The position numbers and the translations under genes are program-made. A DNA stretch of 64,000 bases from Bolinopsis microptera. Lineage: Eukaryota; Ctenophora; Tentaculata; Lobata; Bolinopsidae. The DNA is taken from positions 10,635,226 through 10,699,225 of the forward strand of contig NC_087074.1 of the NCBI RefSeq assembly GCF_026151205.1, read 5' to 3'. Below, one piece after another: positions 18,151-51,700 of this stretch (within the stretch, counting starts at the first letter, position 1; each line of letters begins with the position of its first letter). Under the pieces are notes generated by a model, which saw only the letters and a program-made list of their open reading frames with translations, did no database searches and was not told where the DNA came from.

Positions 18151-18183
18151 TAATGGTTTACTAATGACGTCAACATAGAACAA

Positions 18184-21822: not shown

Positions 21823-21860
<38 letters not shown>

Positions 21861-23420: not shown

Positions 23421-24706
23421 CCTCGGGAACCTGTCCGACCCAACCAGAAACGTAGAGTGGAACATCACTGGAGCAAAGCTGATAAGCTGGAACAACACGG
23501 GAACAAAGCTGAAACTATCAAGCAAAGCTGTGTGTATATAACAAGGAAACAATAGCGACTACTGGTAATTTAAAAGTAGAGCTATCGGAGGCAGCAGCTA
23601 GTCTGCAATGTGATTATACGGCCACGGAGAGATAAATAGAGCACGGTATATAGAGAATATAGAGGTATATATACCTCCTATATCGGAGAGGAGAGGTAAA
23701 TATACTTGAATACCAAAATATACTTAGTGATTGCAAGTTGCTATGACAAAGGGAGCTGGTAAATATGTTGCTACTCGATATGAAGGACAGGGGGGCACTT
23801 TGCTGGCGCATGACTCTGGAGAGAGAGAGAGAGGTGAGTTTGGGTGGTTTCAAATAACCTGAGAGAGCGTGCAGTGTTTGGGGAAGTGCTTAATTACAGA
23901 ATTAGAACGGAGATATCAGGTTAGCTGCAGGAGATGGAAATATTAGAGCATCATCGTTTCGTGATTAGAGATCGTGTTTAGTCACATAATAAAGATAGTT
24001 ATTGATCTGTAACTTTAAAATGTCTGATTACTGAACAACATTTTTGCTGAACTAAAACAAAATTGTGTTTACCTGAGTCTGGATTCTGTTGAGTGTTGAG
24101 TAATTTCTTAAGTCTGAACTCAAGTGTAATATTAATAACATCTTAACATACCTCAATAACAGTACACGGCTCTAGTGACCACTCAAGAGTAATGAAAAAC
24201 GCCGAATAAAGCCCGTAAGGTGTAGGCCCTAAGAACTGTAATATTGTTATGTACCTTTCGGATAAAGTAGATGGTGGTAGAAAATATTATTGTAATGTAT
24301 GATTAATGAAAATCGTTGAGAGATGTGTGAAGTTTAAAGGACATATTCGAAGTTGACGTTTGAGATTTACCTAACTTCCCAATTTGAATTTCAAAATAAG
24401 AATACCTATAAAGATTTGGACCTGGGGTCGTCGGACATAATGACATATTGTGCCTGCTCATTTTGGACGGTGAGAGTGACTAGAACTAACCTATTCAATT
24501 TGGTTTGGACACATAGTAAGACAGCACAAATATAGGTGAATTCTTCGTATATTTACATCACTAGCCTATAAAAATAAAATTAGGTTAGACTAATGAAAGC
24601 AATTTAAAAGTTAACAACTTGAAAATTTAAAACAGATTTTAATCTGAAACTTTACTAAAGAGCTCAATGTGCTAGGTAGAATGGACAACAGAGCATAACA
24701 GATTAT
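23421..24706. other. Intergenic, no gene recognised
   Basis: AT-rich with short GA-rich and AT-rich tracts near 23640-23830. Nothing else supported. Confidence 0.4.
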
Positions 24707-26599: not shown

Positions 26600-28452
26600 A
26601 CCTTTTTTGTAAGATCATTTTATTAGAATAGTAAAATCAGAGATTTCTAAAAACATGAATAAATCGATTAAGTTCTAAGTTCACGTTAATGTTGTATGTC
26701 ACTCTTTCGCGCGCCAGTAGAGTAAAAGGTAACGTTGACGAATATTTGGACAGTACTGAGTTGACGGATAAGTGTAATATCACAGATTGTGCAACTTTAT
26801 TTATTACTAAATAAAAATCATCCCAAAAACGAATTGGAGCCGGGAGCCTGAATATTAATCGATTTCCCTGGAGACCCTCACGAGCCCAGGGCTCTGATAT
26901 TAAATATTGGCGAGTTAATTAACATACTAGAGCCAATATAAGCGCAATTTATTGCACCAGTCACAATTCTCTTTTCGAATAAATATATTAATGGATTTTA
27001 TATTTCATGATCTTTCAAAGGGAGCAGTTTTTAATTTTGGTGCACTGGTTAATGCTACTTTTCTTGCCTGTCAGATATTCTTTTACCGAGGAAGATTCTT
27101 TTTACTTTTTTAATAGAGATGATTTCACCAACATATAAATTTATCATTTTATCAAATTCTGATTAAATAATTGTATTCCCATACATACAATTTTGAACCA
27201 GATAGTATTGCTAGTTCTAATGTTTAAATTTTCGGTTGCTACTCCCACATGTTTTTGAAGCCAAACAATATCAAAAATTGCAAACTATAACTTCATCATA
27301 TCTTCAAGTCTAGCAAATCAGTAATTTTATCTGGTTTTCGTAACACGCATTACTTGTCTATAAATCTTACAAAACCAAATAAATTATATTGTGGTTTATT
27401 TGTTGCTTGACGAATTAGAACGGCTCCGTTTTTCGTGGGTCTTTGATTTAATAAGCACACTTTTACGGATCACAACTCAGAAGGTTAGCTGAAATTATTT
27501 TCGTACACAGTAAATTATAGTGGTATACGGTGTTATATCGGAAAACGGTAGAATAATAAAAATTCTGCCATGCGGTTAAACATAATGAATAGGTTAAAAT
27601 TCTGTAGAAGCATGGAAACCATAGAACTATGTTAAATTACCGTCAGATAAGCGTTTATTTTCTCTCTTATACAATATATGCATGTTTCTTCGGACATTAA
27701 TCAGCAGATTTGACACACTCTGGCATAAACTGGAACACCGTGAATGATACTGATACCTACATCAACTTGTTGGTTGATGGATCAGATAAGTATTTAAAAC
27801 AGGCATTGAGTTTTATTTTCCAACAGCGTCCACAATCCATTTCAATATCAGATTGATTGGAACACCTACGCCCTACAGTTATCTAATTCATAATTCAAAT
27901 TAGAAATGAAAGCAAGAATTTCACGCAATAATTACCACACTCTAGTTTACCTAACTCCAATACTGAGTCATATGGCCAAATAACACGATTTAAAAATGTA
28001 TACAATTTACGTTAGCCATAGCCAAATTAGGTAAACTAGCAGGAACCCGTATAACCCTAAAATGGTGTCAAGACTCAAGAGACTAAAAGAATTATTACCT
28101 GTTTACTTCGCGTTTTTGACACCACTTGGGGGTTCAAATTTTGGGCTCTAAAACTCCTATTCCTTGGTAAATTTTTTATTATTCATGCTGATTTGCAGGC
28201 CATTAAAGCATTTGACCCAGTCAAAAAAAGTTTCAGTTGTATATCTTTTAGTTTTACGGTTTTTGCAGAAAGTCGCGTTAAAGTTGATGCCCTGGTGTCA
28301 GTAAAATGGTACGGATCCAAATATATCGTTTTGCTTTATATAGTAAGATATGTTGCAGTAAGATATATAATAAGATATGTTGCCTCGTTTTAACTGACCA
28401 CTAAATACTAAGTACTTACGAGGGAAGGCATGTTGGTTAATGGATTAGGATA
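26600..28452. other. Intergenic, AT-rich
   Basis: No gene recognised. A small inverted repeat (CTAGTTTACCTAA near 27945 and its complement near 28028) may be a MITE remnant. Confidence 0.4.
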
Positions 28453-29367
28453 TACCTTATCGGACCTTATTTGGACGGACATTACATGAACGGACACAAT
28501 TATGAACGGACATTAATATGAACGCTCGAAGGCATTCAAAGCCATCAAAAATCCGAATTTTTTTCAATATTTTTTGACGTTTTTTAAATTTCAGCAAATG
28601 ATTTTTAAATCCATTTTTTATACAGTAAGTAAGAAAAGCAGTCATTAAGCAGTAAAAATGTTAAAATATGTGTACATGATCAGTGTCTAATATATCACAT
28701 ATCATCTTCATCAAATGGGTTTTCGTGCATGAAATAGTCCATGCTTAAAAGCATCAGTGATTTCTAGCTTTAGGGAAACCTTTTTTTTTAATCAAACTAC
28801 CCCGGTCCTGCATTTCAGTGTTAACTTTTACAAGCCATTCGGTGTGAAGTGGTTTTATCTTAGACAACTTAAGGTTAACCTTAACATCACGTGGAGCTTT
28901 CCCAGCACTTTGTTTCATATTACCTCCCCTGAGTAATATGAGCTATAACAACGTCGGACAATGTCCTTGGCAACACGATTTACCGTAATATCTAGAGGCT
29001 GGAACAAGTTTGTCATGTTGGCGGGGACTAGTTCATGAACTATGTTGTTGAGTGCCATAATTTCGTTGACTTTTTTCCGCCAAGTGACCCTTGAATTTGA
29101 AAACATTATATACTAGTAAAGTTTTCTGTGCCTCCGGCAGACCAAGGAGAACCTTTCCGTCGTTAACTTACGGCACAATAAAGTTCTCAAATTAGTTGTC
29201 ATATTCTGGACAAAAAGTTCGAAATGGAAAAAGTTTTGAAAAAATTTCAACGGACTTTAACTTGGACGGACATTAATTGAACGGACTTTATTTGAACGGA
29301 CATTAAGATGAACGCTAGGGCCTCCAGCGTTCAAGTAATTTCCGTCCAAATAAGGTCCGATAAGGTA
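28453..29367 (-). mobile_element. pogo/Tigger-like DNA transposon, deletion derivative
   Basis: Terminal inverted repeats begin TACCTTATCGGACCTTATTT on the left and are mirrored on the right (ending AAATAAGGTCCGATAAGGTA), next to TA on both sides as in the Tc1/mariner superfamily. Subterminal copies of GACGGACATTA repeat inside both ends. The interior carries only the C-terminal part of a transposase, so the copy is non-autonomous. Confidence 0.8.
28780..29106 (-). pseudogene. pogo/Tigger-type DDE transposase remnant
   Basis: The upstream frame includes NNIVHELVPANMTNLFQPLD, the conserved block around the last catalytic Asp region of DDE_1 (jerky/Tigger) transposases. After a frameshift near 28917 the next frame continues with APRDVKVNLKLSKIKPLHTE, also typical of the C-terminal part of this family. 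The N-terminal DNA-binding and first catalytic regions are missing. Confidence 0.75.
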
Positions 29368-29729
29368 TACGTACAAATGACGCATGTCACTTTCTTTGTC
29401 AGAAAATATCCCCCATAAATCAAACTATACGGGATAGTTTGATTTATAGGGTCAACTTTCTGTATAATAATTAATATTTGTGGTATTAAACAGGAATTAA
29501 ACAGGAATTAAACAGGAATTAAACGTGAAACAGGAATTAAACATGACATGACTAAGGAGAACACTAACGAACTCGTTTTGGTAATACAAGAATTCATAAA
29601 GACGATCAGAACTCTAAAAATCGAGAGAAAGCTATAAAAATAAAATCTTAAAAATTAACCGCGTTACAAATTCACGAAAGAGAAGACAAAAATCGAATAT
29701 AATGATTTAAATACGATTAAAAAGAGTCA

Positions 29730-30120
29730 TGGGGATTTGATAATGAAGATGAGTAGGAGACGGGAGGTGATGAATAGGACTTCTTTTCAGGAGGATTTCG
29801 AAGGTGAAAGGATTCTGTGAGGTACTTTCCAAATTCTGTTGCATGGAATGAGTTCATGATGGCCCCATATTCTTAGAGCATTATGAGGCTTTTAAGGTTG
29901 TCTGAGAGGTTGGACCAGAGGGAGTTGTAGCTGGGGCATTCATTTATGACGTGGTCCTCGGTTTAAAGGATTGGTGTTTCAAAGAATGGTATTTCTTCGA
30001 ATAACCGCATGACGTCGGTGTCTGAGGAGCAGCAAAAGCGACATGTTTTCAGTGCAGTGTTGTAGCGATCTCCATTCTCCAGTGTGGCGATAATATACCA
30101 CAGCCGTGAAAATCTGACCT
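29730..30120 (-). mobile_element. LINE 3' end relic
   Basis: Minus-strand translation gives ENGDRYNTALKTCRFC, a broken stretch, then EDHVINECPSYNSLW. This is the Cys/His knuckle found after the RT domain in many LINEs. At least one internal stop is present and the rest of the element is missing. Confidence 0.6.
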
Positions 30121-30296
30121 CTAAATACAAAGCTCTTTATAATAATTTTACTTTTACATGTTTCAAGTTCTCGCTTTTAATGGTCAGCTATATATAAATA
30201 TACCCAGCAGCACCTTGATTCTGATCTTTCAGAGATATATATATTAGAGTTGCATCAAAATGTGCTAAGTACATGGTATTTATTGAACAGCATGCG

Positions 30297-30415
30297 AGCC
30301 TTTGTTTTACCAGCGTAGCCTTTTAGCTTAGAAAATCTTATACATTGCTGCTCGAGCTTTCTGTTTTATCAGCGTTGCCTTTTAGCTTAGAAAATCTTTT
30401 ACATTGCTGATCGCT
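30297..30415. repeat. Two-copy tandem duplication (about 60 bp)
   Basis: The segment containing CCTTTTAGCTTAGAAAATCT occurs twice in succession with a few differences. Confidence 0.8.
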
Positions 30416-31990
30416 TTCTTAAATATTTGGTTTGATCTTATCACTGACTTATTAATGCACTACTAAAACAGTAAACGTGATTTCGGGGGTAATCAATACC
30501 CACATCTAAATTTAAGTGATATAAATTGTCGTAGATTATCGATTTTGCAGAATATTGAACCTGGAAAACCGATCAGATTACGAAATCTTCTAAAAAGGGG
30601 ATGAAAATATATTCGCAATGGCCAAAATTGTACAATGTACAAAACATATGCCACGCACTACGCAGCAAATGCATTCTATCGCTCTGAAATTCTATTTCAA
30701 GATTTATTGTAGTAAATCTCCATTTGTCAGACTATAATATCATTTCGGGACATAACTTAACACATTTTATAAATTTGTACTTCATCAGTCACGTTCAAAT
30801 TTAGCTCACACAAGTGGTATAGTTACTTACAGGTAATTATTTTACTTTGGATTTGTTAGTTGTCCGCTGTCAGGCTAGGTCTACCAATTCAGACAACTGT
30901 GTCAACTTGGTTATGTAATACAAAAAGCAGACAGTCAGCAATAAACAATTATTGTGAGATTAAAATTGTTATCGAATATGACAGCTCCAACAAATGTCGT
31001 TAAATAAAATAGCTTTTATTTGTAATAGAAGTAAGCTGCATGTAGTAGAAACATAATTGGGAAATCAGGATCAAATATGATCACACGTAACGCGCGCAAA
31101 TAACATGTGCTCTATCCAATGCGAAACTAAAAGTGATGAAAATAAGAGATTAATCGACTGTAGAGTGATTTAGCGCGACCGGAATCTTTATGAACATAAT
31201 AACTTGGGGTCCCCAGGTTGCAGGTTATAGTAATACATGTAATTGTATTGCGCGAGCGATTTTCAATTTCGCGCGTCCTGAAAATCGAGTCTACAAATTT
31301 ATCTCCTCCTACAATTTTAAAGCAATCACCCTGATCAAACTTTCGAAATATGTTCTACGGATCATTTAAAAGAGATGAGCCAGACAAAATTTTTTTGATA
31401 GGCCTTTAAACATTTTTATTTGATTTTTATCTTGGACTTTCAAAAAATCGTCAAAAACGGCCCCCTTAAGGCTTAATTAGCGTTCTGCATTTGAATTCAA
31501 TTTGAATTCAAACAACTAGTGGACTAGAAGTAAAGATGTTTTATGAAAAAAGGAGAGTATGACTTTGCTTGTGCAATAATTAAGGGTTTGTTTTTATAAT
31601 TAATAGTTAAAAATTTGTTCGACTACACCCCCAAACCATGTATTTAGGTACAATAACGACCGAAACCTGAAAATTGAGTAAGAGAGTCCTTTGAACTTTG
31701 AACTGTTTGGACTTTTGCATGGAGATGTGGGAAGGTTAAAAACCCCCATAAAGGGGAGACCCCGTAGTGGTAGCCCAACTACCGCTCTGTTATGCTTGCT
31801 TTACAAAAACAGTGGGTATCATCAAGGCTCAAGACAGGAGACTATGCCATCAGTTGGTTGATGTTCAACGGTTCGTTCGAAAAGTACATACCCAAAATCG
31901 AAAACAGGTTCAACAGACATCCAGCGTAGTATCCATTTCGGGAACGAAAACGTTAACAAAGGCCGGAAAAGAACAATCACCTCTGATAAA
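30416..31990. other. Intergenic with small element fragments
   Basis: AT-rich. TCGACTGTAGAGTGATTTAG at about 31154 matches an end of the 375 bp MITE described at 37697 and 56664, without the rest of that element. TGGGGTCCCCAG at about 31204 matches the end of the 75 bp interspersed element. No gene recognised. Confidence 0.5.
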
Positions 31991-32470
31991 ATTACGACTC
32001 TTCTTATAAGGTCAGGATGAAGAGTCTTGGAGTTGAGGAGAATACTCGTGAAGTCTTCTCCTATTTATCGGGGAGCCACTTGGTCACCTCTGACATCATG
32101 CTCGTAGGTGACCTAAAATGCTCGTACAGGTGGTGTCAACCTTAATCCCAGTGACAAAAGACTGGATGAAAAAGAAGAAATCGAATGCACCCAGACCTTG
32201 CCGAGCTGTAAAGATTTGTACTATATGAAAGAGGTAATAGATTCCTTGACCTTCTGGGCAAGCTTGTGTCCTCAATCTATTGAACGGCAATGTTCATTGG
32301 TGCATTTTTGGTGAGCTTCACCTGCTATCAGTACAACGGACAAGTGTCGTTGACTTCATAGCAGTTTCACCGAGCATCTGGGAATATGGTGAACGGTTCA
32401 AAGTTCTTTCCTTAACTAACTTATCAGATCACAAACCTTTCCTCTGTCAACATACTAGTTAGAATCAATT
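31990..32470 (+). mobile_element. LINE endonuclease relic
   Basis: Fragments of an EEP endonuclease: DIMLVGDL at about 32093, then after frame changes SVVDFIAVSPSIWEYGERFK and LSLTNLSDHKPFL at about 32340-32450. SDHKP is the conserved C-terminal catalytic block. Several frameshifts are present and no RT follows. Confidence 0.65.
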
Positions 32471-32569
32471 GTTAGCCTATGTATTAATTCAAGAGGCTTC
32501 TTAAGATGCACTAAATGACCGAAAATGGGATGAGAGATGAATCGGCCCACCCACTGTTATGTAATCTAA

Positions 32570-33234
32570 TTGAAAAACGCAGCGATACCACCCAGCGAAG
32601 ATTTTTGTGACTTCAAAGCCTGTGGGTTCAACAGACGAATATCTCCGATAAAGAGCCAACGGATCAAATACAAAATTACTTGGGAATGTGTAACTCTAGC
32701 AGTAAAAACTGCCCGTAGGCCCCATTTAGTTGCTCGTTTAGCTCAGTCAGTCAGGGATAGTTATGGATATGACTTGCCGATAGCTTGCTACGACGACGGG
32801 CCAAATGATTACCCTCGAGGTATTAGAGAATCAGAGATCGGTTAGCTCAGTATCCGTTATTGACGTACGTTGTCAGTGACGATGAGGATCTGGGAATAGC
32901 AGAGGGGAGAAACAAAGCCCTCAAAATGGTTGAAACAAAATATTTCTTCATTTTGGATGACGACGTGATGTTTATGAACACAACAAACATGCAAACGCAA
33001 ACCATGATTGACATTTTGGACACGACCGATGCCACACTTGTTGGTGGTCAGCTACTTGGAAGGGCAAATTTTGCAGCTTTAATAAAGTTTGGATATTTCG
33101 GTGGAACCCTCAGAAGATTGGGATACTTCCCTGGAACTTGTGCAAAACTTAACCAAACCGTTCCGAACTACCCGCGGTGTTTGAGATGCGAGCTTAACTC
33201 AAATATTTGGATGGCAACTGACTTACTGACTTAA
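32570..33234 (+). pseudogene. Glycosyltransferase (B4GALNT/GT2-like) fragment
   Basis: The first frame (32570-32845) includes CVTLAVKTARRPHLVARLAQ and IACYDDG. After a one-base shift near 32835 the next frame continues TYVVSDDEDLGIAEGRNKAL, then KYFFILDDDVMF, whose DDD is the metal-binding DxD of GT-A glycosyltransferases. Order and spacing resemble beta-1,4-N-acetylgalactosaminyltransferase-like proteins. The frame ends after WMATDLLT, well short of a full catalytic domain, and lies next to retroelement debris. It is probably a broken, possibly retrocopied gene piece. Confidence 0.7.
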
Positions 33235-33500
33235 GGCGGCTTCAGCGTCTGAGTATTGATGCGCTGTCTCCATAGAACTCTATCCGCCATAAGTCTGCCC
33301 ATTTCTCCAGTGTCGTTGAAACCCGTGTCAGCTCGTAGTTAGGCTATCAACATAAGTCATGGCTGGTCTTCCCTACTCTGCACCCCATGAGTTGGATGGC
33401 AAGGACAGAGCCTATCCCACAAATCGGGAGATGGGATCCTGAGCTGAAGGTTTTTTAGCACCTTCCACAACCCTATCAGGGTTAGGAAGGTAAAACCATG
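33235..33500 (-). mobile_element. LINE C-terminal tail relic
   Basis: On the minus strand MADRVLWRQRINTQTL ends in a stop. This resembles the last residues of RTE-type LINE proteins (DRxxWR). No other domain of the element is present. Confidence 0.35.
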
Positions 33501-34135
33501 GGGTGCCCTACATAGACTGAATAAAATCTGGAAATCCAAACTTTCTAAATTTTCAGCGGAATAAACAAAAATTGTTTGAGTCATACTTTACAAATATACG
33601 TACCAATCATTTATTATAAGCGTGATAACATATAGTAAATGAGGATGTTACAAAAGGAATTAATTTAATGTAGTTTGAGGAGTCCTAACTCTCCTCACGT
33701 CCAAGAATGGCGTTTCTTTTGTCGTTAATTATATAAGCGTGATATAACACTCTCGTCAACAGATATAAAAGTCTTATTTTCTGATCTAACATGATATTAT
33801 AATAAAACATACTTGAACTTTTATCATTTTAATCATTTGTATTCTATCGTCAGCTCAAACAACTTATAAACATCATCTTCATGCTTTTTGTATCTAACAG
33901 TAACATAAATCTAATAAATCTGTATCTGTAACTCTGTAAGTCAAAACTATTACAAACGTATAGTATAGTATCGGTAAAACAGAGAGTACTTCTGATATTC
34001 TACAATAATATGATCTGTTTTTACTTTCCACTAATCAAAATCTAGATTTGTCAAAATTTCTTGGTTCGACATTTCAGGGTGATTCAAAAAGAATGTTCGT
34101 ATTTTTAAAATGTTTTAAAATTTTACAACATTCCA
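33501..34135. other. 3' flank of the large secreted-protein gene
   Basis: AT-rich. It should hold the 3' UTR and polyadenylation site of the minus-strand gene ending at 34136. AATAAA-like motifs are frequent but none can be singled out. Confidence 0.4.
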
Positions 34136-36720
34136 TTAGTATTTGTTGCAGATCTTCTCCTCGTAGTAATCGTATTCCGGAGATGGTCCCTTAATTCTGA
34201 GGGAGATACAATCGGAAGTTTGGAAATTCTTTGGTTTCTTCATCTTCATTCTTACAGCAGCCACACCATTATTGACTCTGACCTGAATAAAGTACATAAG
34301 ATTAAGTTGGGCTAGTTGCGTTGCAATTATGTTTAGCAATAGCCACTTAGATGATTGATGCTTTCTTCATTTCATGTTTTCACTGGGCGCCGCTCAGCCT
34401 GTCATTCCGCCGCATTATAGCCTGGGGTCCCGGCTAGGTAATTCATGATTATTATATTTTTTGTCGCATCGATATCTGTGAGAATTAGCCGATAAAGTGA
34501 TAACGCGTTTATAATTGATTTTACAATCTTTTCATTATTTTATAGGTTTACCCTGGCTTTTGTAGCTTTGCTGGAGGACTTGATTGAGCTGATGGTAAAG
34601 TCAGAGGGATCGAGTTTGAAGATACCTCGCTTCAGGTCCAGTGGCTTACCGTATTTCAGCGCCTATCAAAGAATGATTTAGTACGATAAGGTATTATCTT
34701 TTAATAATTATATGTAAAAATTGGAAATGTCATTAAAAGATTAAATACGTTAACCTATACCTATTCTATTGACCATGGGTCAGGTTTATTAACAACATAT
34801 CTGGGTATTATTAAAGTATTAACTTAGGTTAACCGTGTATCTAACCACAACTCCGTTTACTTACTGAAACTTCGAATATCAGGGAGATGGTCTTTTTGGA
34901 CCAGCTTGCTTTTATATTGTCCTTAAGCCTGTACTCAAATGCGGCTGAAATATGAAGTTAATGTAATTAGTTAAATTCTCAAGTCACGTCCGCCTGAAAG
35001 TAAAATTATTAGTTTAAAAATGTGTTATAACTGTATACAGTGCTTACCATGTAGTTACCATGTGGTTACCCATCATACCAAACTTATATAGTTTCACTTT
35101 CACTTCTCTCAAAGTCAATAAAGCACAGGCCCAAAACATGATTTCATCTCAAAATTATGGTTACCTTATCCGTTATCGGTCATAATTATCACGGACATTG
35201 CTTTCACGCTGAAGACCTTAGCGTGAATAATTAAGTCCGTGAAAATAATGTCTGTGGCATTAAGGTCCGTGAATAATAAAGTCCGTTAATTATTTCCATT
35301 AATTGTAATATGGGTGTCCCTACATATGCGTAGATATATGTGTAGCCGATTACTATATTAGTTTATTAGTATACTTATAAGACAAATATAATCACTCCTC
35401 AGTCACATTCAAGTGTTCAGCAAAAAGAGTAAAACACTTATTAAAAATCCCCAAAAAATTTTCACAATTTTTTGGAAAATTTTGGGCGGTCATGAGCGTG
35501 AATAATTATGTCCGTGAAAAATTTGGTCCGTGAAAAACGTGTCCGTGAGAATTATGCCCGATAAGTTATTTACCATTATAACAGAAGAGCCCAGCGACTT
35601 CGTTAAAGGCGCAAGGAAGCTTGGCATCAGTGTAGCGGGTGACAGAGCAATGTTGGAAAAGGAAGTCATCGTCTCTAGGACAATACATTTGGGTGAAGAG
35701 GAAGTCCACCCTGTCACTCTGTAGAGACACAGCTCTGCCGAACTGAAAGGGGAAACTTTAGTATTACATGAAATACGTGGTGTGTCTCACTTTTGAGCAT
35801 GGACGCACTTTTTTTCTTCCGTTGGCATAAAAATCTGCTTTTTGTGGTCTCACAATTTTGCACATAAATATGGATTATGATACCTTCAACAGATACCGAT
35901 TCAAGTTGGAATTCTCACATTATATCCATGTTGTTTGCAGACAAGTTGAGCCTCTCTATCACTCCAGCCGTCATCACAGAGCAGTCCCCATTTATCAGCA
36001 GCTCCAGTTGAGTCTGGTGTGGCTATCTCCAGGATGTAGGTTCCAGGGGCAGCTTGTTCCACTAACCTTGTTCTGATGCTCACTACGTGGAGTGTAAGTT
36101 TACAAATTAGAAGTTATAGTGACATTCAAACCTCACAATACTGCAATAGATATAAGCATGAACAAAAAAGTATGCATTTTTGTTAATCCTCAGCTCTGTT
36201 CTATGTTCATTAACACTTTAACAGGATTAAAATGCTCCCAATCTAAAAACACATTTGCACATGACAGTTAGCTACGATAGTTCAAATACGCACATTTTTC
36301 ACAAACAGGGTAGACAGCCTGGCCTATCTTGTTGCAGAAGGCAGTGTTACCACTCTCCTTCTGGAGCCTGTAGCCATCGTCACACTTGAAGGTGTAACTA
36401 GCGTCCTTGCCTGTCCCTGCTTTGTCTACAGCTTTGCCGTTATCAATGTAGGGTTTTAGCTCACATACTGGGAAGTAAGTGGTTAGCTGCAAATAAACTG
36501 GTGGTGTGCGCTAAATACTGGGGACGTTTGTAGTTGTAAAATATGGTTTTACAGTAAACTTAGACTAAATCCTATTCCATGTTTAGTATGATTAAAAGCT
36601 GTTACAGACCTTCTTTCTCGCAGATGGGGCAACATTCTCCCTCCTTGTAGACAGGTACACAGTCTTCCTCCATTTGCCAACAGTCGGCTACCGCACAGGA
36701 CTGCTCCTTCTCCCCTTCGC
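34136..36720 (-). CDS. Exons 18-24: VWC half, Sushi, SRCR, novel C-terminus
   Basis: Exon 18 ends VYKEGECCPICE (VWC). Exon 19 is a Sushi/CCP domain (CELKPYIDNGKAV, then TFKCDDGYRLQ, then VCEK). Exons 20-21 form one SRCR domain: WGLLCDDGWSDREAQLVCKQ, then FGRAV, and C-terminal cysteines around MYCPRDDD, QHCSV and LFCYN. Exons 22-24 encode about 112 residues rich in predicted beta strands (AAFEYRLKDNIKASWSKK, FKLDPSDFTISSIK, VRVNNGVAAVRMKMKK) ending EEKICNKY. I do not recognise this last region. Confidence 0.8.
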
Positions 36721-39700
36721 CTGAAATTTTAACAATCAGCTATTATATGACGGCAACTAACCGACCTTAGAAATAATACACTACAATCGTATTAATTGCG
36801 TTATATTTCTCTCGTTTTTTCGATTCTGGAAATGAACTACCATACTGAACTTTGGGTCATATAAAAAGAGTATAATCACACAGTCGATATAAAAGTATTG
36901 TACATCACAATTACTTTAACAATTGCATGAACTGCATGGCAGAATTGATCAATGACAATCATCATTACTTTTGGCATAGAAAAGTTTTACAAGACAAATG
37001 AAAATAACATGAATCAGGAGTTTCTTTCCAATTCGAATATTCTGACACATATTTGATTTAAACATTTAATGACAGTAAAAATCTCATGTGGTAAACATAA
37101 AATAGCGAAATTCTACAAAGTCCCAATGGTCTCCGGAGATCAGAAAAATCTTTGCTGGTTTAATTTATTCAGTCAGTTTACTTCATTAGTCATTCAAAGA
37201 GAATATTTCGAAATTTTTCTGTATCATCAAATTTCAGGACATCACGATAAATCTGTGACTGTATTTGCCTGACTGTCAAAATCATCCTATGCTAGCTTCT
37301 GTCACTAATCTCTTCATCCTTGGAGACGCTTGCACGACCGGAACTACATGTGACAACGACTGTATAGAGATTGCAGGGGACGACGACCGAGCCTTAAAAC
37401 GGTTTCGAAGAACCAAACTCACGCGTGTCGCTGTATTCAGATGTTTCAAACGGCCATAGTCCCTGATATTTCCGGTCAAAAATAACTTTGCAAAGAGCGC
37501 GAACCTCTTGTTTGTGAAGGAGTATATCAGAGGGTTAGCAACGAGGTTGAAAGATAAAATGTACATGTTCATAGCATTGACGTAGCGGGGAATATTTGTA
37601 ACTCCGGCAACCGGAAGGGCAAAGAGAACAACAGAAGGGATATATGATACTATGTAGACCCAGCAAATCAGGGATATCGTCTTCACTGCTTTAAAGCGAG
37701 CGTGCTAAATCACTCTACAGTCGATCTTCGAGATTGTTCTAAAAGGGCCCCCGACGGTTGTAACCAACTTCAATCGATGTATTTTCGGACGCTGATTCCG
37801 AATCACCCCCCATGACATAGGGTTAAAATGCTCCCCTGACGAGATATTGGCGAAAAACTGTCTCGATCACGTGATATGACCGTATAAGGAAGTTAGTCTA
37901 ATTTCTCGTTAGGGTTAGGGTTTCAGCATATGTTTTTGTTAAGGATCGGGTTAGGGTTAGGGTTGGGATCAGATTAGAGGGTTAGGGTTTCGAAGATTCG
38001 TTCAGAACTAGCTAGAGAACGGGTTGAAAAAGTCACGTGACAGTCGAGTGTAGAGTGATTAATCATCATCCGCTTTAAAGTTACTCTCTCGGGTAGCAGA
38101 GTCTACGATAGCTGAATTAGCGTACACTAGCCGGAGAATGATGATGTTTGCTATCACTGTGATTATTGCTGGGATAAATAGATAAAATCCAGATATCATC
38201 CTCAATATCCGAAGGTATGTGGATACGCTATCAATGTTGTCCCAATCGAAGGGGCTGCAGTTCAAGTGTGAAGGTTCGTACTTTATTGTCGGTTTGATCC
38301 CCGTCAGACCGATCAGGGAGGTAACGTAGAATATCCGGCAGTTTACAAGAAGCCCGACTGGTCCATGGACCACTGGTCTATGGACCACTCTAGGTGGTCC
38401 ATGGACCACTGGTCCATGGACCACCTTATCACTGAATAAGTGGTCCATGGACCACTTTAACAAGGTCCATGGTATCAGCAAGCACTTTAGCTTCCATTAT
38501 CATATGATCCAATCATACGGTAGACTTCTTCGCTAAGATTGCAAGATGTCAGTATTAACTACGAAAAACGTCGCAGAGATATATAAGATGAATTGTGGTA
38601 CACAGCCATCGTCGTTTTCGATATACAAGACAGATACTTGTACACCACTACTGTGTTTTCAATATGAGCCACTCACTACACAACGAAATCCATCGGATTA
38701 CAAATACTGATGAGCATGCAAGGGATTTCCTCTTTCAACGTGGTATTCTGAAGTCCTCTCTTTCCTGTCCTGGCTGCTCTTCTGCTATGAACCTTGTACC
38801 CTGCTCCTCTAAGAAGTCCTCAGACCTTCTCATCTGGCGGTGTTCACCCTGCTCAAGGTTTAGGAACATACGAACGGATAGTGTTCTCTCTGGACAGAAG
38901 CTCACCTTCTCACTATTCCTACAGCTGGTTTTCTACCTCAGCATCAAATCCCTTGCAAATGTAGCTATCTCTCAGCTCATAGGAGTATCAGAGAACACCA
39001 TCAGTGACTGGAAGACCATGATACATACAAGAGTAGCTGACTTTCTGGTATCCAATCCCTCTCCTCTCGGTGGACCTGGTGTTGTCGTGGAGATGGATGA
39101 GGCCAAGTTCGGAAAACGCAAGTACAATAAAGGAGCTTACAGAGAAGGGCAGTGGGTGCTTGGAGCTGTAGATCGGAGCAACGGTAACTGTTTCCTACTA
39201 CCCTGTCCGAACAACAGCAGAGGTGCATCCACACTACTCCCTCTGATTAGACGCTGGATCCTCCCTGGTTCTGTTGTCTATACTGACGAGTGGGGAGCCT
39301 ATAACAGCCTAACTACCGCTGGCTACACTCATCACACCGTCAACCACTCGATCCAGTTCGTGGACCCGGCAACAGACAGTGAGAAGTATTGATTTTTTGC
39401 CATCGACCACAGTCTACTATATCCTTCAACTACATATTTGTACCCTCCACTACCCTACTATGGTTTACACATCTGACAAGGACAAGAGATTGAACAGCAT
39501 CAATTCCTGTGACCCAATCTGCAAACCCTCTACTCCTTTGGATAAGTCGACTCAACGAGGCAGACCGCTGGTGGTAAGCAGAGCACACCCCAACTTCTGC
39601 ACACACTGTGGTGAGCGCCATGCCTCTATATCCTGCGCTGCTGTGGATCCTGTCAACATAGACGCTCCTATCCCAACTAATTCTACAGCTCTCCCTGTCC

Positions 39701-42700
39701 CTCCTTCCAGATGCCCCGACTGCACAGTGCTGAAAAGAACGGGTCCTACAATTACAGTCCTTGATGGTGTCGAAAGAACCGTCACTATCACAGAACGAAA
39801 GCTCTGCCCAACCCACCTTGTTGGAGACTCCACTGCTCCTCCCCCTTCCCCTCCTTCCCCTACCTACGTTCCGGATTCTCCTCCACTCCCACCAACCTTT
39901 ATAGCTCCAGAGTCCTCTGCTCCTCCTTCTCAAGTCGCAGATACAGACCTGGATTTGTCTGTGCACACTGAGCAGATTCTCGAAAGATTAGAGAGTGGTG
40001 ACAATCCACTGAACCTGCTACCTAGAGACCCCTCTCGTCTACCTACCTCCCCAACTGTCGACTCTCCCCTCAACCTCATCGAGATACCGCCTCCTCAACC
40101 ACTACCAGAGAGCTCGGCAGGACCTATCAGACGGAGGAATACCACACGGAGGAACATGGAAGCAGCAATCCATCAACAATATCCTCTTGTTTTGGAGATG
40201 GTGAAGAGTGGGACGAGCGCAAGGCAGGCTATTCAGCAGATTCAGATGCCCAGATCAACGTTCTACAAGTGGCGTTTTGTTGCAGAAATGAAGCTTGTCG
40301 ACTCCTCACACTATCATCACCTAGCTGATCAGTTCAAGGGAACCAAGCTGTGTGATCAATGTAAATACTGTTTATTTGAGGACTCTGCCTCTCTCAGAAA
40401 GACAGAGGAGATGAGGAAGAGCTCCGACCTTCTCCCTCTATCTATGTAAATTGTATGTTATTTACTTTTGTAATACTTATTATACATATTGCAATCATAA
40501 AGATGCCAATTTCAATTGATAATAAAAAATTAGATATAATCTTCATGAGTTGACTTATGGTGGTCCATGGACCACTGTACCTTGGTGAAGTGGTCCATGG
40601 ACCACCTATAGTGGTCCATGGACCACTGGTCCATGGACCAGTCGAGCTTCTTGGAGACTGCCGAATATCCAGACCCCAGAAAGCACCATCTTCAGACGTG
40701 AGGGTTCCATGGGGCTGTTCAGCGGGGACGCCAGGACCCTTACCCTGTGACATGACATGATCGCAATCAACATAGCCTCACAACAAAACGGGATGTATCT
40801 GAGTATCCCACAGTAACAAACAAACGTCCCCAACAACCACCGTTCTGTTGCCAAGGTAACTAACATTGGTATAAACTGGAGGAATGTAGCCAACATGTCC
40901 GCCACTGCCACGTGCTCGATCAGGATCACTGAGTTTGGCTCCATCCGGATAGCATTGTATTTGAGGGATCCTAGAAGTACAAGTGCGTTTCCTCCCAGAC
41001 CGGAGATTATGACAAGACTGTTGTAAACAAGGAGAAAGGATTTGATTCCAGTGTGGTGCTCTCCCAATACATTGTCAAGGGCGGTGTGGTTGAGGATACT
41101 TTCCTCATCGACATTCCACATTCCTTCAAAAATTGTCAAGGTTACCTTATTAGCTTATTGAATAATGTCATTTTAAATTTACGATTGAGGGGCAGAGATA
41201 CTGTAAAAAAGAATTACCGTGAAAATTAAAAATCGAATGTACTGTTGAGTGTTGGCAACGTAAGTCATTAAGCCTTAAGGTAAATTAAAAATGGATCGCG
41301 ACTTAAATTCTAGCAATTTCCGTGTTCTTGTCCATTATAAGATATAACATCCGGATCTGATCGATGAATAGTCATCAGAGATCCAGGAATTTCATGAATA
41401 TACCACCAAACGAAGGCCGATTAAAGGGTTCCTTTTGTTCAGCTAACAATTTTAATGAACAAAAGGAACTCCTAGATTACAAGCTATGATGGCTATTTGT
41501 TCAGACAAGATGTGGCACTGCTCAATAAACAGGGACATAAACAAACGCACAGTCATAAAGCAGTCTGCAGGGCCACGTGAGAAGGTAAAAGTACCTATTA
41601 AGTATTAAACCAAATAACGCAGAGTTGTATCATATGCTGACAACTGAAAGGAGGAAACAGAGCGGCCTTAACAACATAAAATATATTACAATTAGAAGAG
41701 AGCAAAGGAGAAATCTTTCGTCAAGTTACCTGATTGTCTTTCTGCTTATGCTGCTGTCTATGTCCAGAAAATAGAAGGATAAACACAATCAGGTAACGTG
41801 ACGAAAGATTTCTTATTTGATCTCTTCTAATTGTATTTGTAGTACATTTTATGTTGTTGAGGCCGCTCTGTTTTCTCCTTCCTGTCGTCAGTACAATTAT
41901 ATGATATAACATTGTTCAGGTTCTATGAGGTTTCAAACTGGATTGAAATAAATCTAATCTTCAAGAGTATTATACCCAACATTGACCGGCGAACTGATAG
42001 CTACTTCAGAAGCAATGAAACTACAATCTTTTAGATAAAATGAGTCATAGTACTTTCAGCCGGAGCCATCATAAGTGACATAAATCTAAAAGATAGTATG
42101 GTTAGTTTCTAAATATAAACTCAAACTCTGAAAAGGAAACTGCCGTGAAATATGAAACATCAACAAAAGGACCAATTATTTTTAAAAATAATTTATGGAA
42201 AGCCCCTCAGACAAAATAAAAATCAATTATGCAATAAAGGAATCTAATCTTAAAAGGGTTTGTACTATTCATTCCTGAGGGGCGGAGGGAATTTAAGGCA
42301 TGTATATATCGGTGCTCCTTAACATCTAAACTACTAGGACTTGAATTTTCTAGGATACACACTGAAACACTATTGTTAAAATTTTTCTTCTGAGTCAGTC
42401 CATGCTCTATATGGAGGTGGAGTCCTACGCAGTTTGAGTCATCATCCGTGTCAACCTTTTGCCCTAATCTAATCTTATAGTCTCAATTACGAGGGTAGGT
42501 CAAAATGAACAGTGAACACGAAAACATGGAATGCAATTAAATCAAATCAAATTTTGGAACGTTAGGTGACCTGAAACACAACAGCACCTCTAACTACTTC
42601 AACACATTTCTACAGGTATGTACCTCAAGTATGTAACTGAAGTATGTACCTCAAGTATGTACCTCAAGTATGTACCTCAAGTATGTAACTGAAGTATGTA

Positions 42701-45700
42701 CCTCAAGTATGTACCTCAAGTATGTAACTGAAGTAGTTAGTCAGTGACTAGCCGGGCTTAATAATTAGTTAGTCTGGCCAGAATTTAGGAAATTCCAACA
42801 AGGAAAAGGCTCTTATCAATATCAGGAGAGGAATTATTCAACGTTTCAATGTGACAACATCGTATTTATGATCTCAAAAGATTTCTCAAATTATTTGTTA
42901 TAAATAGTTCAAGGGGGCTATATTTATGAGTCGCATTTGAACTTGATTTCTCTTGGAGAATTTCTCTTTAGACTCTTAACTTGCGAACAAATTGAAGCAG
43001 CAAACTTTAGGCTAGAATAAAGTTTCTAGCCTAAAGTTTGCTGCTTCAATTTGTTCGCAAGTTAAGAGTCTAAAGAGAAATTCTCCAAGAGAAATCAAAT
43101 ATTTGTTATATAGTAGTGCTTATGGGTTCTAAAAATGTCGGTGCGAGTCAGAGTCAGATCCAAAATTTCAAAGTTGCAATTTTTAGATGAACATTTAAAT
43201 AACAATAGCCATATAATCTTGCTCAGTCTTGCTATTAGTATTACTTCTAATAATATATGGCGGCGTTTAAACCGGCATGAAAGCATCCAAAGCTTCGTAC
43301 TGTGAAATATCAGTCCACAACAACTATAGTACTCTAATTAGTCTAACACTCGGGTGCAATTATTATAGCGGCTGTTTACACATCAAATCACATCAGGTAA
43401 TGTCAGCTACAGTAGACATTCGATAGCTTAATAATTTAATTATTTGCAGTTGCAGAATTAGTTTAAAGTTTTTATAGAGGAAGCTAATCGGATTTAATAG
43501 TATGACCTCAATTACTGTCACTGGCCTTAAAAAGCCTGTTGGCTCCTACGACTGTATAACTACGTACAATCGTTGTATTGTTGGACAACCATAGCTGTAC
43601 AGAATCACGATGAAAATACGAAATTGAAATCGAAAATCCTCACGCAGACTTTATTAACTTGTCCCAAGTATAATAAACGTTAATTTTGACGTACACGACT
43701 ATGAGGTCAAGCTGCCTTTGTAGAATCTTGTAAAGAAGCAGCACGAAATCACGTGAATACATACTGGCAATAGCTAATTCTAACGTTAACCTACTATCAG
43801 TTTTATTTTTTAAGTACAGTTAGCATAATATTTTAAAATATCACACACGCACGCTGAATAATTTTGCTGGGGCGGTTATTTGACTTAAAATGTTTTACAA
43901 CTGGATCGTGCTTGTAACTTTCATAAACTGTATTATAACTATATTGTTTAAACGGGTCAAATGCAAAGAGGGAGATTTTTAAAAGTTGTATATTATTATT
44001 TTACAACGAAGCAGTTCATAAGTTCATACTAATTAAATAACAACAAAGCTCTTGCAAAATTGACGATATTTAGTTAATCAGTACTAGTACTACTACTAGA
44101 CGGAGATGTTGTAATTAATAAACAAAGAAAATGAAAATGACTGTAATCACCTATTTTCATGTCGTTATTGTGGCGTGCGTGTGTTAGATCAATACACAAT
44201 ATGGCCAGTTGGTAGATCACCGACCGGCTATAAGCCGGCTACTAACCGGCTATAAGCCGGCTTATAGCCGGCTACAATTTTTATAGCCGGCTATAAGCCG
44301 GCTTATAGCCGGTTAGTAGCCGCTTACATTTGTTGTTGAGCGACGGCTATTAGCCGGTTATAAGCCGGCTATTAGCCGTTTTGGTATTAAAAGTGGTTAT
44401 AAGCCGGTTACAAGATATTAACTCAACTACATCGTACTGAACGATAGTCAGGAGCCGGCTATAAGAAATTCAGTGAAAACGGCTATTAGCCGGTTATAAG
44501 CCGGCTATTAGCTGTTTAGGTATCGAAAGTGGTTATAAGCCGGCTATAAGCCGGCTATAAGCCGGTTATAAGATATTAACTCAGTTCAGTACGATGAAGT
44601 TAAGTTAATATCTTATAGCCGGCTTATAGCCGGCTTATAACCACTTTCGATACCTAAACGGCTAATAGCCGGCTTATAACCGGCTAATAGCCGTTTTCGC
44701 TGAATTTCTTATAGCCGGCTCCTGACTATCGTTCAGTACGATGAAGTTGAGTTAATATCTTGTAACCGGCTTATAACCACTTTCGATACCTAAACGGCTA
44801 ATAGCCGGCTTATAACCGGCTAATAGCCGTTTTCACTGAATTTCTTATAGCCGATACCTAAACGGCTAATAGCCGGCTTATAACCGGCTAATAGCCGTCG
44901 CTCAACAACAAATGTAAGCGGCTACTAACCGGCTATAAGCCGGCTTATAGCCGGCTATAAAAATTGTAGCCGGCTATAAGCCGGTTTATAGCCGGCTTAT
45001 AACCGGCTTATAGCCGGTCGGTGATCTACCAATTTCCCCACAATATAGATTAATATAGATTAATACTTTCAACACTACTATAGATTAATATAGATTAATG
45101 CTTTCAACACTACTATGTAACAAATAATTTTAGTAAATGGCATTCAACATGGCCGCTGGATTATTGATGACGACTGCTTATAAAGATAGACGAAACTATT
45201 TTATAAAAGGCTGCGAAGTTTGTGACGAATTGGAATCTATTTATTGTATTTTTCTGAATCTGGTGTAGTATCATTGCTTCATTGGCTTTATTGAAATGAT
45301 GAATGGCCCAAACACACAATCAATCACATTAATAAACTTTCCATGGACTATCAGCCAAGCTTACATTAAATATATTATAATAGTGTTATAAAACGTCATA
45401 TTGTCACTCTAAAACGAACAGGTACTGTTCTCGCGTTGCAGTATAAAATACAATATAAGAGAAAGACTATGAAAGTAAAAAAATCATCAGGTTATCATCA
45501 AAACTGATCACGATCCGGAAGTTTATCGTAAAATACTCATAAGCTCATATAATCGACTTAATAGATGCCCAACCTTAAAAGATCAGGATTGGAATCTTTC
45601 TGACATGAGTTCATTGAATAATATCACTTTCAATTATAAGCCCACATTTTCCGTAATCGTTTTCAACTACCCTTAACTTATCAACCTCTTTCGGAAACAG

Positions 45701-48700
45701 TTGTGAGCAGCCTGGATTAAAGATGGTTCTGATATGAGCAGAGGGCAGCTGACGGGTAAATTATTAAAAAAGTGTAGCTTGTCGTAGTTGTGGGCTTATA
45801 AACTTAACACCAGCGCCACTATAAAAATCACTGACAAATATTTTTATCAATATCAGTTTAAAACAAAATATTGCAACAGAATAGATTGAATAGAATTCTT
45901 TTGTCTTTTTGTCTATTCCTGCCCAGCTATAAATGGAAAACAATCAGAAACCAGAATTTCGCCGCGGTTACATCATGAACGATCAATGAAGAAGAAATGA
46001 GTGCCGTAGACACTTTTGTCTTAACACAATTAGGATCGAAAACAATAAAGCAATAAGCAGTCCAAATTTTGGGCATCCAAAACTATGAACGGCCCAAAAT
46101 AATAATCATGAGCAGTTATAACGGCTAAATTGCTCAAATATAAGGATCGTTTTAAAAAATGCATACAGTACTATATATGGCTACATAATATTTACACCTA
46201 AACTCCGAGAAAGAGGCGAAACAAGTGTAGCTCCTGATCCTCTCACAAGTCAAAGTGTCTCACTAACTGAGATTTATAAAGTTACTGTTAACTATAATAA
46301 CCGCATGTAAATGATATAATGAAAGTATCGTGGTACTGCAGGTAATTGAGCGAAACTGTGAATTACATAAAGAGATCCTGTAGGTTCATTTCCTCCTGAG
46401 ACTTTTGTTGATAAACGCTAGCCATAATATTTTGACGCGCCCCCGCTCTTGGTGTATTAATTAAACCGTGTAATTATAATATATGAGTGTCAGATAACAG
46501 GAACAGCACATGTACTCAAGGTACAGTGGATATGAAATTTCCCGTTTGGCTGGCACGATGGCTGGCTGACGAGTGAATGCAGCTGCCTTCCAGTGGATAA
46601 GAAATTTCCCGTTTGGCTGGCACGATGGCTGTCTAACGCGTGAACCAGAATGCAGCTGCCTTATATATATACAACTATGCGGCGAGATATTAGCTCGTCA
46701 TGTTGTTGATTTGTTGCGTTTTGATTTTTGTTTAGCCTTGAAAGTGAAAACGAACCGGCTAATATCCATGACTCATTTACTGAAATTAATTGTGCTGCAT
46801 ATTTGTGTTAAGAGTGAGGTTTAGGTCTCATGGAAGATCAGGAGGGCCAGGGGTCGAATTTCGTGAGAAGACATGTCGAATGGTCACATGCCGAACCCAC
46901 ACATGACCTTCATTTTGATTTTTCCATGCTTGCTTATATAAGTTGTTTTTATCCGTCCACGTTATTTTGATTTCTGTTCTTTCCATACTGATAGCAGAAT
47001 TTAAATGACGTCTAAGCTTAGTCTAACTAATTCAGCAGCAGAATGTCTCTGAAGATCAGCAGGAAAGAGGTGAAGATAATCTCCACCAAGAATGAGCTGC
47101 TAGAGATGGTCCAGCTTCTCAATCACGGAAATCCAAGTCAGGTTGCAGTAAATGTAGATGGTGATGAACCTTCAAGGGACGGAACTGTGGTTCTGCTTGC
47201 TCTCAGTTGGAATAGCCATGCGACTTATGTGGTCGATGTGCAAGTAAGTTTACTTTATCAAAACAATAGGCATGGCATATAAGTTTTATTAGTATGCAGT
47301 AATTATTACACTAGAATTAGTATTTGTTCATACGAAATATAAGTGTTTTGTTATGGCTATAAATATAATAGCCGGTGCCATTGTACTAATTTGCCGAACG
47401 TACTTCATCCTTTCTTTTCCCAGGTGCTAGGTTCGGCTGTTTTTACCACATCAGTAGATACAAAGGAGTGTCAAACAAGTCTGAAGAAAATGCTAGAAGA
47501 TGAAGCTGTACTGAAGATCTTTTTAGACCCAAGACCAGATTCTGATGCCTATACCATCATTATGGGATTCATCTTAAACACTGTGTCTGTCTTCAGTTGG
47601 CAGAAATAGCTGTAAGGCGGCAAGCTAGACCTACCTTACATGGGTATGTAAATGGGGGCAGAAAGATAATCTTAGCATACGGAGACCTTGATTCAGTAGA
47701 GCTGCAGGAATATGTTGATATTGAGGGGAAGGGAAAACAACTCATATTCCCAGATCAAGGAGGTTCCTACGATAACTTAACCAGGCGGCCACTCGACACA
47801 GTAGCTGCACAATACAGTGCTCTGGCAACTTCATACCTTGTGCCAGTGTATATGAATCTGGAGACAAAGCTGACCGAACCAGGAAAGAAGTGGGTGAGGG
47901 AGGAGTCGATAAAGAGGGTAGAAGAGTGCTTGCTTCCAAAGTTCGGGGGACGTGGCAAGTTCAGGGCCTTAGCTCCCCCTCACTGGAAATAGACTGATTT
48001 GCATATTATCTGCATATTTTAAATATTATCTGTTTAGGGGCTTGCGACGTTTTGATATTATCACTGACAAATAACCACAACCGAACGGGATTGTATATGT
48101 GCCATCACAGTGCTTAGAACTGATTACAGCCATTATTAATATTCCTTAACTGAACCTCATTTCGACTGTCGTACTGAAACCCCTTCGACTAGTTACAATT
48201 TCCCTTTATAAAATTGTATTTATACAATTTATTTATACAAAACATTTTTCAAATATCCTTATATGGATATTTGAAAAATGTTTTGTTCCTGTAACTTCCA
48301 AAGTTCCAACAGCAAGATGTTTTCTAAAACTCTGGTATACAATATCTTTAAAATTATCACAAACGTGAGAATAAAGTTACCGTTGAGTCCACAGTAGCAG
48401 AAAGTACAAGCGTCTGGTTTCCACTCGTCACCAGGCTGGTACTCGATAGTTTTACCTCCGTCATACATCTCACACGGCTTCTGACCTGCATATGGGTGGA
48501 ATTTATAATTTGATCTACATTTTTGATTAAAATTTGATTTGATATTATTAAAATATTGTAACTTTATATTGAACACGAAGTTTTAGAAGAAGGCTAAAAG
48601 TATTTATTCTTATTACCATTACTGAACTAAATTCTTAAATTATTAATTGTATCTGCAATTTGTCGTGATTATTGGATCAACTTCACAATGAATGATTAAT

Positions 48701-51700
48701 ATAGATGGTAATTGAATATGTTATTCAAAGAAAGTCTCACAGATGGGACAGCAGGCGTCTTCAGAATAGACAAATTCGCAACCTTCCTCGGGTTGCGCAC
48801 AGTCCATGGCCATGCAAATCTTCTGTTTAATGCCTCCTGAAGGGAAACCGGTCAGTATATTATAATAATTTCATTCCGGCAATACACTAGTGCATCAACA
48901 AAAACATCAAAAAAGGTAAACAACCCTTACTAACACCAATTATGAAAAACATCAACCGGTCAAGATAAATAGCAACAAACAGCCATAAAAAGTTTCTCCG
49001 CTTGATATCTGTAAATTTAAATTATCTAATGTCCACAAAGACGACAAGAATTGGGCTCTTAGAGTTGCAGCAGATCTGGAAACAGCTGCTGTCCATGGCC
49101 GGCAAAGGGAAGTATGGCAACGGATAAAAACACTGTCCGGTAAGAAGAATCGAAAATCAACTGCTGTAAGAGACAAATCCGGGAAGTTGATTGCTGATCC
49201 CTCTGCTCAGAGAGAGAGATGGGGAGAACATTTTTCGGAGCTATTAAACCCTCCTCCCACGAATGCGGATCTGTCTGACCTGGACCATCTTGAAGTGGTT
49301 CCATGCTTTCCTTATCTTGGTAATGGTGATGGTCCCCCCACTAGACTTGAGATTTTAAACTGTCTCAAAAAATTAAAGAACCACAAAAGCGCTGGGATCG
49401 ACGAAATCTCTAATGAGCAGTTAAAGTATGGGGCAAGTGGTCTTGTGGATAGGATGGAGAAATTGTTCTCTAAAGTTTGGAATTCAGAAGCAGTGCCTGA
49501 CGACTGGTTGAAAGGCATCGTGATAATTGTACCAAAGAAGGGTGATACCTCTCATTGCTCCAATAATAGGGGGATCACTCTAAGATATACAGCATCTAAA
49601 CTGTATCAAATCATCATTTTACAACGCATGAGTGACGGTTTAGAAAGTTTGCTACGAGACAATCAGTGTGGGTTTAGAAAGAACAGATCATGCATTGATC
49701 AGCTTTATTCACTCCGCACTATTATACATAACTGCATTGAATATAATATCCCCCTGTATGTAAATTTTGTGGACTTCAAGGCAGCTTTTGATTCCATTGA
49801 CAGGAATTATATTTGGAAAGCTTTCAGTCATTATGGCCTGCCATGTAAATACATTCGAATAATACAGGCATTCTTTAATGGAACTGTTAGTGCTGTTAGA
49901 CACAATGGTGAACTATCAGAATGGTTTGAAGTAAGTTCAGGCAGTGGCCAAGGAGACATTCAGGGTCCCCCACTTTTTAATGTCTGCCTCAATATGGCTG
50001 CTGAGAGAACAGAAAGCAACAAAGTGGTGTCCCATGGAGCGGTTCTTCAAAGATCTATCAGTCCGCTTGTTGATGATATCACTGTGTTAGATACAGATTA
50101 TGCAGATGACATGGCTGTACTGGATAACAGCGAGGAAGGTCTTCAAGAAACGACTGACCTTTTGTGTATGTATGGTACCCAGGGAGGTCTAAGAATCAAT
50201 GGTAAAAAGACTGAGGCTATGGTCATTGGTAAAGCAACCTCTCAACGGCCATACACGAAAGAAGCCACAGTGAACATCACTGTTGAAGACACGCCAGTGC
50301 AGCAAGTTAGTGACTTTACGTACTTAGGTACAATTATATCCAGCGACGGTACTATCGACCGTGAGCTGTCAGCTAGGATTCAGAAAGCTTCCGGAGCCTT
50401 CAATCAACTGAGTAATATATGGAAAAACCGCAACATCCAGTCTTATACAAAGATCAGGATTTATAAGGCAGCGGTTTTGACAATATTGTTATATGGTAGT
50501 GAGGTTTGGAACACAACCAAAAAGCAGCTACATCGCTTTGAGGTGTTCCATCAGCGTAGCTTGAGGAGAATACTTAGGATAAGATGGCTCGATCGGGTTA
50601 GAAACACTGAAGTGCTGGAGCGTGCAAAGATAAATCCAGTAGAGACGTACATAGGAGCAAACCGCCTGCGTTGGTTTTGCCATGTCACCAGAATGCCAGA
50701 CACTAGGCTTCCTAAGTACCTGCTTAATTGGACCCCTGCCCATGGGAGAAGATCTAGGAGCCGTCCAAGAAAGAACTGGAGAATATGTTTGCTGGAAGAT
50801 GCTGCAGCGTTTACAGGAAACACTGACATAGACCTAGAAGGAGCGAGCGAGATGGCTAGTGACCGCAAACTTTGGAGGGAGATGATACGCCACAAACGGG
50901 AGTTCATTGGTGCAGGCCACTCGAATGATTGAGGAGACCTAATCAAGTACAAGTAAGTAATGTCCACAGAACAATGATAGAACATTGAAAAGGCAATTAT
51001 TTCATGGAAAAATATGTTGTTCTTAAAATGTGTATTGTATACCTTCTCCCTCGATACATTCGCAACTCATACAACGGTCTGGTTTCCAAGACTGCCCTAT
51101 ATCGTAGGTTTCATTCCCAAGTGAGCACGGATCAGAACCTGCCATTATAAGCTTGGTTAATATAGCGGTAGGATTGCAGATATTTGTAAAAATATGTACA
51201 ACTATAATATGATAATACTATTATATAAAACTATTTAAACTATAAACCTGTACCGCCCTCTCTCTCATATACATATATTAATATATACTTGGCTAATATA
51301 TTAAAGGCCGCATTTAGCTCTCTTCCAAGGTTTTACTTTCGATTTTGACAAGCTATACGAAATACAGTGAAGGTATTTTGAAGGTTTTACTCACAATACG
51401 GACAGCACGTTGTCTTATCGTCATAAATAACTTCTGATTCTGGTCCACAAATTGGTATGCTACACGCAATCTCCATACACTCGTTTCTGTAGCCCGTTTT
51501 CTCTGGAGATTTGGTTATTAAGGAAACTTGGTGTAAAACGTTGTACCAACTTTGGATATAATTTCGATATTTGAGGCGTATCGATGATATTATTAGTTTT
51601 GCCGGCTTTAGCGATCGTCAACTATCAATATAAAAGTGTTATCGACCATAACAATATGTTTACAATTTATCAACTTCTCATGGTATGACTCAAAACACGC

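Follow-up and report, generated by a model that had tools for sequence, protein, structure and literature searches.

Two unrelated mobile elements have inserted independently into an intact rhodopsin-family receptor gene, after the copy of the gene that carries them (copy B) parted from a near-identical, uninterrupted copy (copy A) found in the same assembly. The stretch in which copy B was encountered, hereafter the window, comprises 64,000 nucleotides (C3:10635226-10699225; positions given without a contig name are those of the window), and the genome searched comprises 264.65 Mb in 232 contigs. On the evidence of the comparisons described below, we regard it as certain that the insertions are young and independent, and that the gene they struck is otherwise intact and has an intact counterpart.

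Copy B is a single-exon rhodopsin-type receptor gene on the minus strand (37282-41121) that is split into three pieces by a Merlin-type DNA transposon and a 375-bp MITE. The first piece (40671..41121, minus strand) runs open from the start codon over about 150 residues to the expected fourth transmembrane helix (TM4), its protein being identical to that of the intact copy over 150 amino acids; the middle piece (38081..38336, minus strand) extends from the expected TM4 to the third intracellular loop, and the last piece (37282..37687, minus strand) ends at the stop codon. The Merlin element (38337..40662, plus strand) is flanked by the two copies of an 8-bp target duplication, GAATATCC, at 38329..38336 and 40663..40670, and the MITE (37697..38071) by those of a 9-bp target duplication, GCTTTAAAG, at 37688..37696 and 38072..38080. 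On the plus strand of the window, GAATATCC occurs at 38329 and 40663 only, and GCTTTAAAG at 37688 and 38072 only. Leaving out each element together with one duplication copy yields a frame of 1122 nt, made up of 373 codons and the final stop with no internal stop. In terms of the receptor protein, the Merlin insertion point follows residue 153 (VWIF), and that of the MITE lies at FKAV, just upstream of CWVYIVSYIP. By their motifs, VWIF is expected to represent TM4 and CWVYIVSYIP to represent TM6. None of the three copy-B pieces passes the cut-off of the Pfam 7tm_1 profile singly.

The uninterrupted copy A lies at C3:10478429-10479550 (in L061), about 194 kb from copy B, and its open frame holds all 373 receptor residues. 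It matches 7tm_1 over profile positions 1-260 of 260 (E 1.5e-19, 70.9 bits), as a rhodopsin-family GPCR does, and is distantly similar to solved receptors, with the ghrelin and somatostatin-4 receptors ranking first. When the first 150 residues served as a protein query and the best 150 of 515 candidates were scored, 100% identity was obtained for the window and C3:10479101-10479550 only; among these 150, no remaining match exceeded 41% identity, and the top-scoring one reached 39%. The coding sequences of A and B are 99.2% identical, with 9 of 1122 bases different and no indel in the receptor. Nine codons differ by one base each, 4 of them silently and 5 non-silently (dN 0.0059, dS 0.0151), differences which are too few for talk of relaxed selection. 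A second intronless rhodopsin-type receptor is present elsewhere in the window (12876-13826; 7tm_1, E 1.7e-13), and the region around it is 95% identical to C3:10876582-10879921.

When copy A is aligned to the joined flanks of copy B, GAATATCC and GCTTTAAAG are each present once and neither insertion is found. These empty sites show that both duplications are real and that both insertions are younger than the A/B split, and the presence of an intact, near-identical copy explains why copy B has suffered no other decay. Chance repeats as the source of the target duplications are ruled out, because the uninserted copy has each site once and because exact duplications recur in both element families (27 of 31 MITE copies and 7 of 10 Merlin copies; see below). 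Exact excision of both elements, by which a B-like gene would have become copy A, is unlikely: six further insertions counted in B relative to A are missing from A as well, and A carries about eight of its own.

The preliminary description of the window had held that a receptor gene is cut by a Merlin-type element (8 bp) and a 375-bp MITE (9 bp) and is open for the rest, a state that is seen directly in the sequence as the 1122-nt stop-free frame. Its claim that the receptor was intact when struck agrees with this joined frame and with the near-identical copy in which both sites are empty, and its view of the insertions as young or polymorphic is borne out by their absence from copy A and by the near-identity of the copies within both element families. 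The suspicion that one of the duplications might be due to chance, which it had raised against itself, failed on the single occurrence of each target site in the uninserted copy; it had likewise named orthologues with the same insertions and many other disruptions as evidence that would count against it, and the sole near-identical relative found in this genome carries neither insertion.

Both elements had also been typed correctly: the first has the ends, the 8-bp duplication and the DDE_Tnp_IS1595 domain of a Merlin, and the second belongs to a high-copy family with 9-bp duplications. According to the part of the published account used here (PMC8101967), Merlin elements have a conserved terminal GG, terminal inverted repeats of at least 24 bp and target duplications of 8 or 9 bp. 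The element in copy B, which is 2326 bp long and internally deleted, has the ends GGCAGT...ACTGCC, inverted arms of 89 nt that are 88% complementary, with the outer 6 nt being target sequence, and a duplication of 8 bp at the receptor site. It contains a shortened transposase gene (38664..39392, plus strand; scanned from 38667), in which the DDE_Tnp_IS1595 domain (PF12762) scores 53 bits against a cut-off of 27 and is matched to profile position 104 of 153. A second open frame (39460..40449, plus strand; scanned from 39436) is proline-rich, with a helix-turn-helix-like C-terminal part and a weak CCDC106 match below the cut-off, and the sole match of this frame in a PHROGs scan was a weak one to a terminase small subunit (E 0.02). 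A 233-bp piece of the second frame is found again at C9:16005955 and on C6, these places having a common context that differs from the one here (L051, L052, L056), and a mixed origin of the frame is possible.

Among 10 other Merlin copies examined, 7 share the GGCAGT ends and are flanked by an exact 8-bp duplication, 1 (the long copy on C8) has no duplication, and 2 had no clear pair of ends. The long pieces of the window copy (1037-1080 bp) differ from four copies (L032-L035) by 2, 3, 3 and 5 mismatches, and the window copy shows 18 and 19 mismatches in about 1 kb to two further copies (L036, L037); to judge from these copies, the family is young. The window copy is short of the complete transposase of an autonomous element, since 436 bp found in the C8 copy are missing from it, along with the C-terminal end of the protein; the DDE_Tnp_IS1595 match reaches profile position 131 of 153 in the C8 copy compared to 104 in the window copy. 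The C8 copy is no plain full-length version either, since part of the window copy is missing from it and it carries extra sequence near its right end. Among the matches listed, only the window itself reads across the deletion point, and among the fetched loci the deletion junction was found only in two that overlap the window's own place; the 436-bp deletion seems to be private to the window copy, which may have been shortened before it moved, the transposase then coming from another source, or else during or after this insertion. The near-identity of the copies marks the family as a candidate for current movement. That the family, with its transposase gene and a gene for a DNA-binding-like protein, is indeed moving now, its copies inserting into genes and segregating as null alleles, we consider rather doubtful; if true, the receptor would be a gene caught in the act.

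The 375-bp MITE belongs to a family of high copy number with 9-bp target duplications. Scoring of the best 40 of 2997 first-look candidates gave 39 copies other than the window's own that are 96-99% identical, which makes this a young family as well. The duplications were checked at 30 of these 40 places, holding 31 copies with the window copy included: 27 share the same ends with an exactly duplicated 9 bp beside them, 1 more matches at 8 of 9 positions and 3 do not fit. The 9-bp repeat in the receptor contains TTAA, and TTAA as the true MITE target was rejected, as other copies have exact 9-bp duplications of varied sequence at the same ends. Within the MITE, TTAGGG-like repeats are present at 37908-37989. 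Another copy of the 375-bp MITE is located at 56664-57038 (L010), with an exact 9-bp duplication, and is absent from block A, the long repeated block to which copy A belongs.

Two strikes in one gene without other decay had been called unusual in the preliminary description. The lack of decay stands, accounted for as it is by the 99.2% identical intact copy, and the claim of rarity is weak, given 8 insertions over 20.4 kb. Over the aligned part of blocks A and B, B has 8 insertions relative to A and A has about 8 relative to B, counts that omit two gaps in which each block has bases of its own (495 versus 1991 and 135 versus 10). Assuming even insertion and computed after the fact, 8 insertions in 20,359 shared columns lead to an expectation of 0.44 within the 1122-bp frame, a probability of 0.068 for two or more there and one of 0.98 for some two of the eight lying within 1122 bp of each other, values which show only that a double strike needs no special cause. 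The two receptor insertion sites are 257 bp apart in A. With 8 insertions separating B from A over 20 kb, two in one gene are therefore not surprising. A reverse-transcriptase element at 49038-50959 is absent from block A at that place and has more than 30 near-full copies in the genome at 97-99% identity.

Judged from the block ends, the assembly presents A and then B head to tail on one chromosome. The end of block A occupies 12500..31740 (plus strand), of which the compared pieces 12500-16000 and 26600-31740 match C3:10876123-10892591, that is, the end of block B; repeats aside, each of the compared left-hand pieces is matched by a single near-identical counterpart. Block B, the second copy of the long repeated block, starts at 32570 and runs to at least 63955 (32570..63955, plus strand), matching A from C3:10473663 onward and aligned in pieces to C3:10473663-10506953. 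Between the two lies a joint (31741..32569; C3:10666966-10667794) consisting of a LINE-like fragment that departs from mutually agreeing genome copies: at 169 columns a pair of other copies share a base from which the window differs, at 23 and 1 columns the window sides with one member of the pair against the other, and a third, shorter copy gives the same pattern by eye. The joint is probably gap fill, and A/B homology begins exactly where this error-rich stretch ends. No run of N was found at the joint or in the stretches read. Further left in the window, a tandem array with a 44-bp unit in about 101 copies occupies 1740-6380, and an Rfam scan of the window at gathering scores returned no match.

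A second anomaly is found in block A itself, where from C3:10473663 to about 10478246 substitutions relative to B amount to 5.9% and short indels to 40.5 per kb, versus 1.56% and 1.25 per kb in the remainder. This indel-dense stretch (L065 3664-6501 and L061 1-1746) stops sharply about 180 bp from the receptor A stop codon, and a third copy of part of it sides with B at 111 columns and with A at 5, standing alone at 66. It is probably unpolished sequence; true decay of A's left end is less likely than sequence error, considering the even indel density, the sharp stop and the third copy that favours B. As evidence for an assembly fault the joint is weaker than this stretch, because an old LINE copy could give the same picture. 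Outside the error-rich part, A/B substitutions are uneven, ranging from about 0.2% to 6% by stretch, with 0.2-0.4% at the window's right versus 1.5-3% over most of the middle. A glycosyltransferase-like fragment at 32570-33217 has five matches on C3 within 10.384-10.668 Mb, the window's own included, the relatives at C3:10384002, 10386772, 10458466 and 10473663 forming a local family; these five matches indicate that true local duplication occurs in the neighbourhood.

Since the edges of the A/B block coincide with stretches rich in short errors and resembling gap fill, we consider it likely that A and B represent a single locus in a heterozygous animal, its two alleles having been wrongly placed in tandem, in which case the insertions would be heterozygous. 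Contig A would then be a retained haplotig, placed before B by scaffolding and gap filling, and the assembly would show a false tandem duplication; B would be a null allele, giving at most the first 153 receptor residues followed by about 18 foreign ones, and A would keep the receptor function. For false duplications it is reported that gaps lie between most of them and that incorrect gap filling sometimes joins them, and half read depth and heterozygous k-mers are given as their marks (PMC9516828). Retained haplotigs are plausible in this assembly, as the unplaced contig C30 (59326 bases) is a repeat of C13 sequence near 5.87-5.88 Mb, the two differing in length by about 8 kb, and is itself a probable retained haplotig; it was the one haplotig-like contig among three unplaced ones sampled, the samples of C25 and C40 having fallen in repeats. 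Counting against two alleles are the N-free joint, which a real read may span, the local glycosyltransferase family and the uneven A/B divergence. These same features, together with the head-to-tail order on one chromosome, would suit a true recent tandem segmental duplication, its outer marks putting A at about 193 kb and B at about 225 kb, in which a redundant receptor was struck twice and its sister stayed intact, and the drop from 1.5-3% to 0.2-0.4% divergence fits patchy gene conversion between paralogues. A biological breakpoint, however, does not predict that both repeat edges lie on error-rich, gap-fill-like sequence, nor that homology with A starts exactly where the error-rich joint ends, and we hold this duplication to be possible but unlikely.

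Loss of the receptor from the species, with copy B as a fixed pseudogene and the uninterrupted copy as a remnant or unrelated paralogue, is highly improbable: copy B is unable to give a full receptor, but copy A is fully open and, with its 9 differing codons and the dN and dS given above, is no distant paralogue. Least probable of all is that B still makes receptor because splicing removes the insertions or they are tolerated in some other way; the flanking frame is in register without the elements, but a precise removal would each time need to include one copy of the duplication, and both elements come from repeat families present on many chromosomes.

Taken together, the doubly struck receptor is a case of clean but ordinary mobile-DNA damage, and two alleles and a tandem duplication are both ordinary kinds of event. 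As both pre-insertion sites are preserved in the same assembly, the order of events can be read directly, from an intact gene through the splitting of the copies to the two insertions. The apparent tandem duplication may be an assembly fault, and receptor gene counts in this assembly need a check for retained haplotigs.

MITEs with 9-bp target duplications are a known class, which the receptor MITE resembles in its shortness, high copy number, constant length and ends, exact 9-bp duplications and the lack of any noted coding capacity, and from which it differs in the imperfect outermost bases of its inverted repeats and in its internal TTAGGG-like repeats. Likewise, null alleles caused by transposon insertion and young gene copies broken by transposons are known kinds; the intact counterpart, the few substitutions and the clean target duplications are in keeping with them, whereas here two DNA elements have struck independently, at the short distance given above in the empty gene. 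Compared to the IS1016/IS1595-related Merlin transposons, as far as they are covered in the part of the account used here (PMC8101967), the window copy is alike in its terminal GG, 8-bp target duplications and a DDE_Tnp_IS1595 match above the curated cut-off, and unlike in lacking the end of the transposase within the 436 bp that the C8 copy has; moreover, the family described here carries another open frame in the orientation of the transposase gene, whereas that part of the account describes a transposase, to which one protist family adds an antisense frame that is there by chance. Finally, blocks A and B resemble false (haplotypic) duplications, as characterized in the part of the source used (PMC9516828), in being near-identical tandem blocks whose joining sequence looks like poor gap fill.
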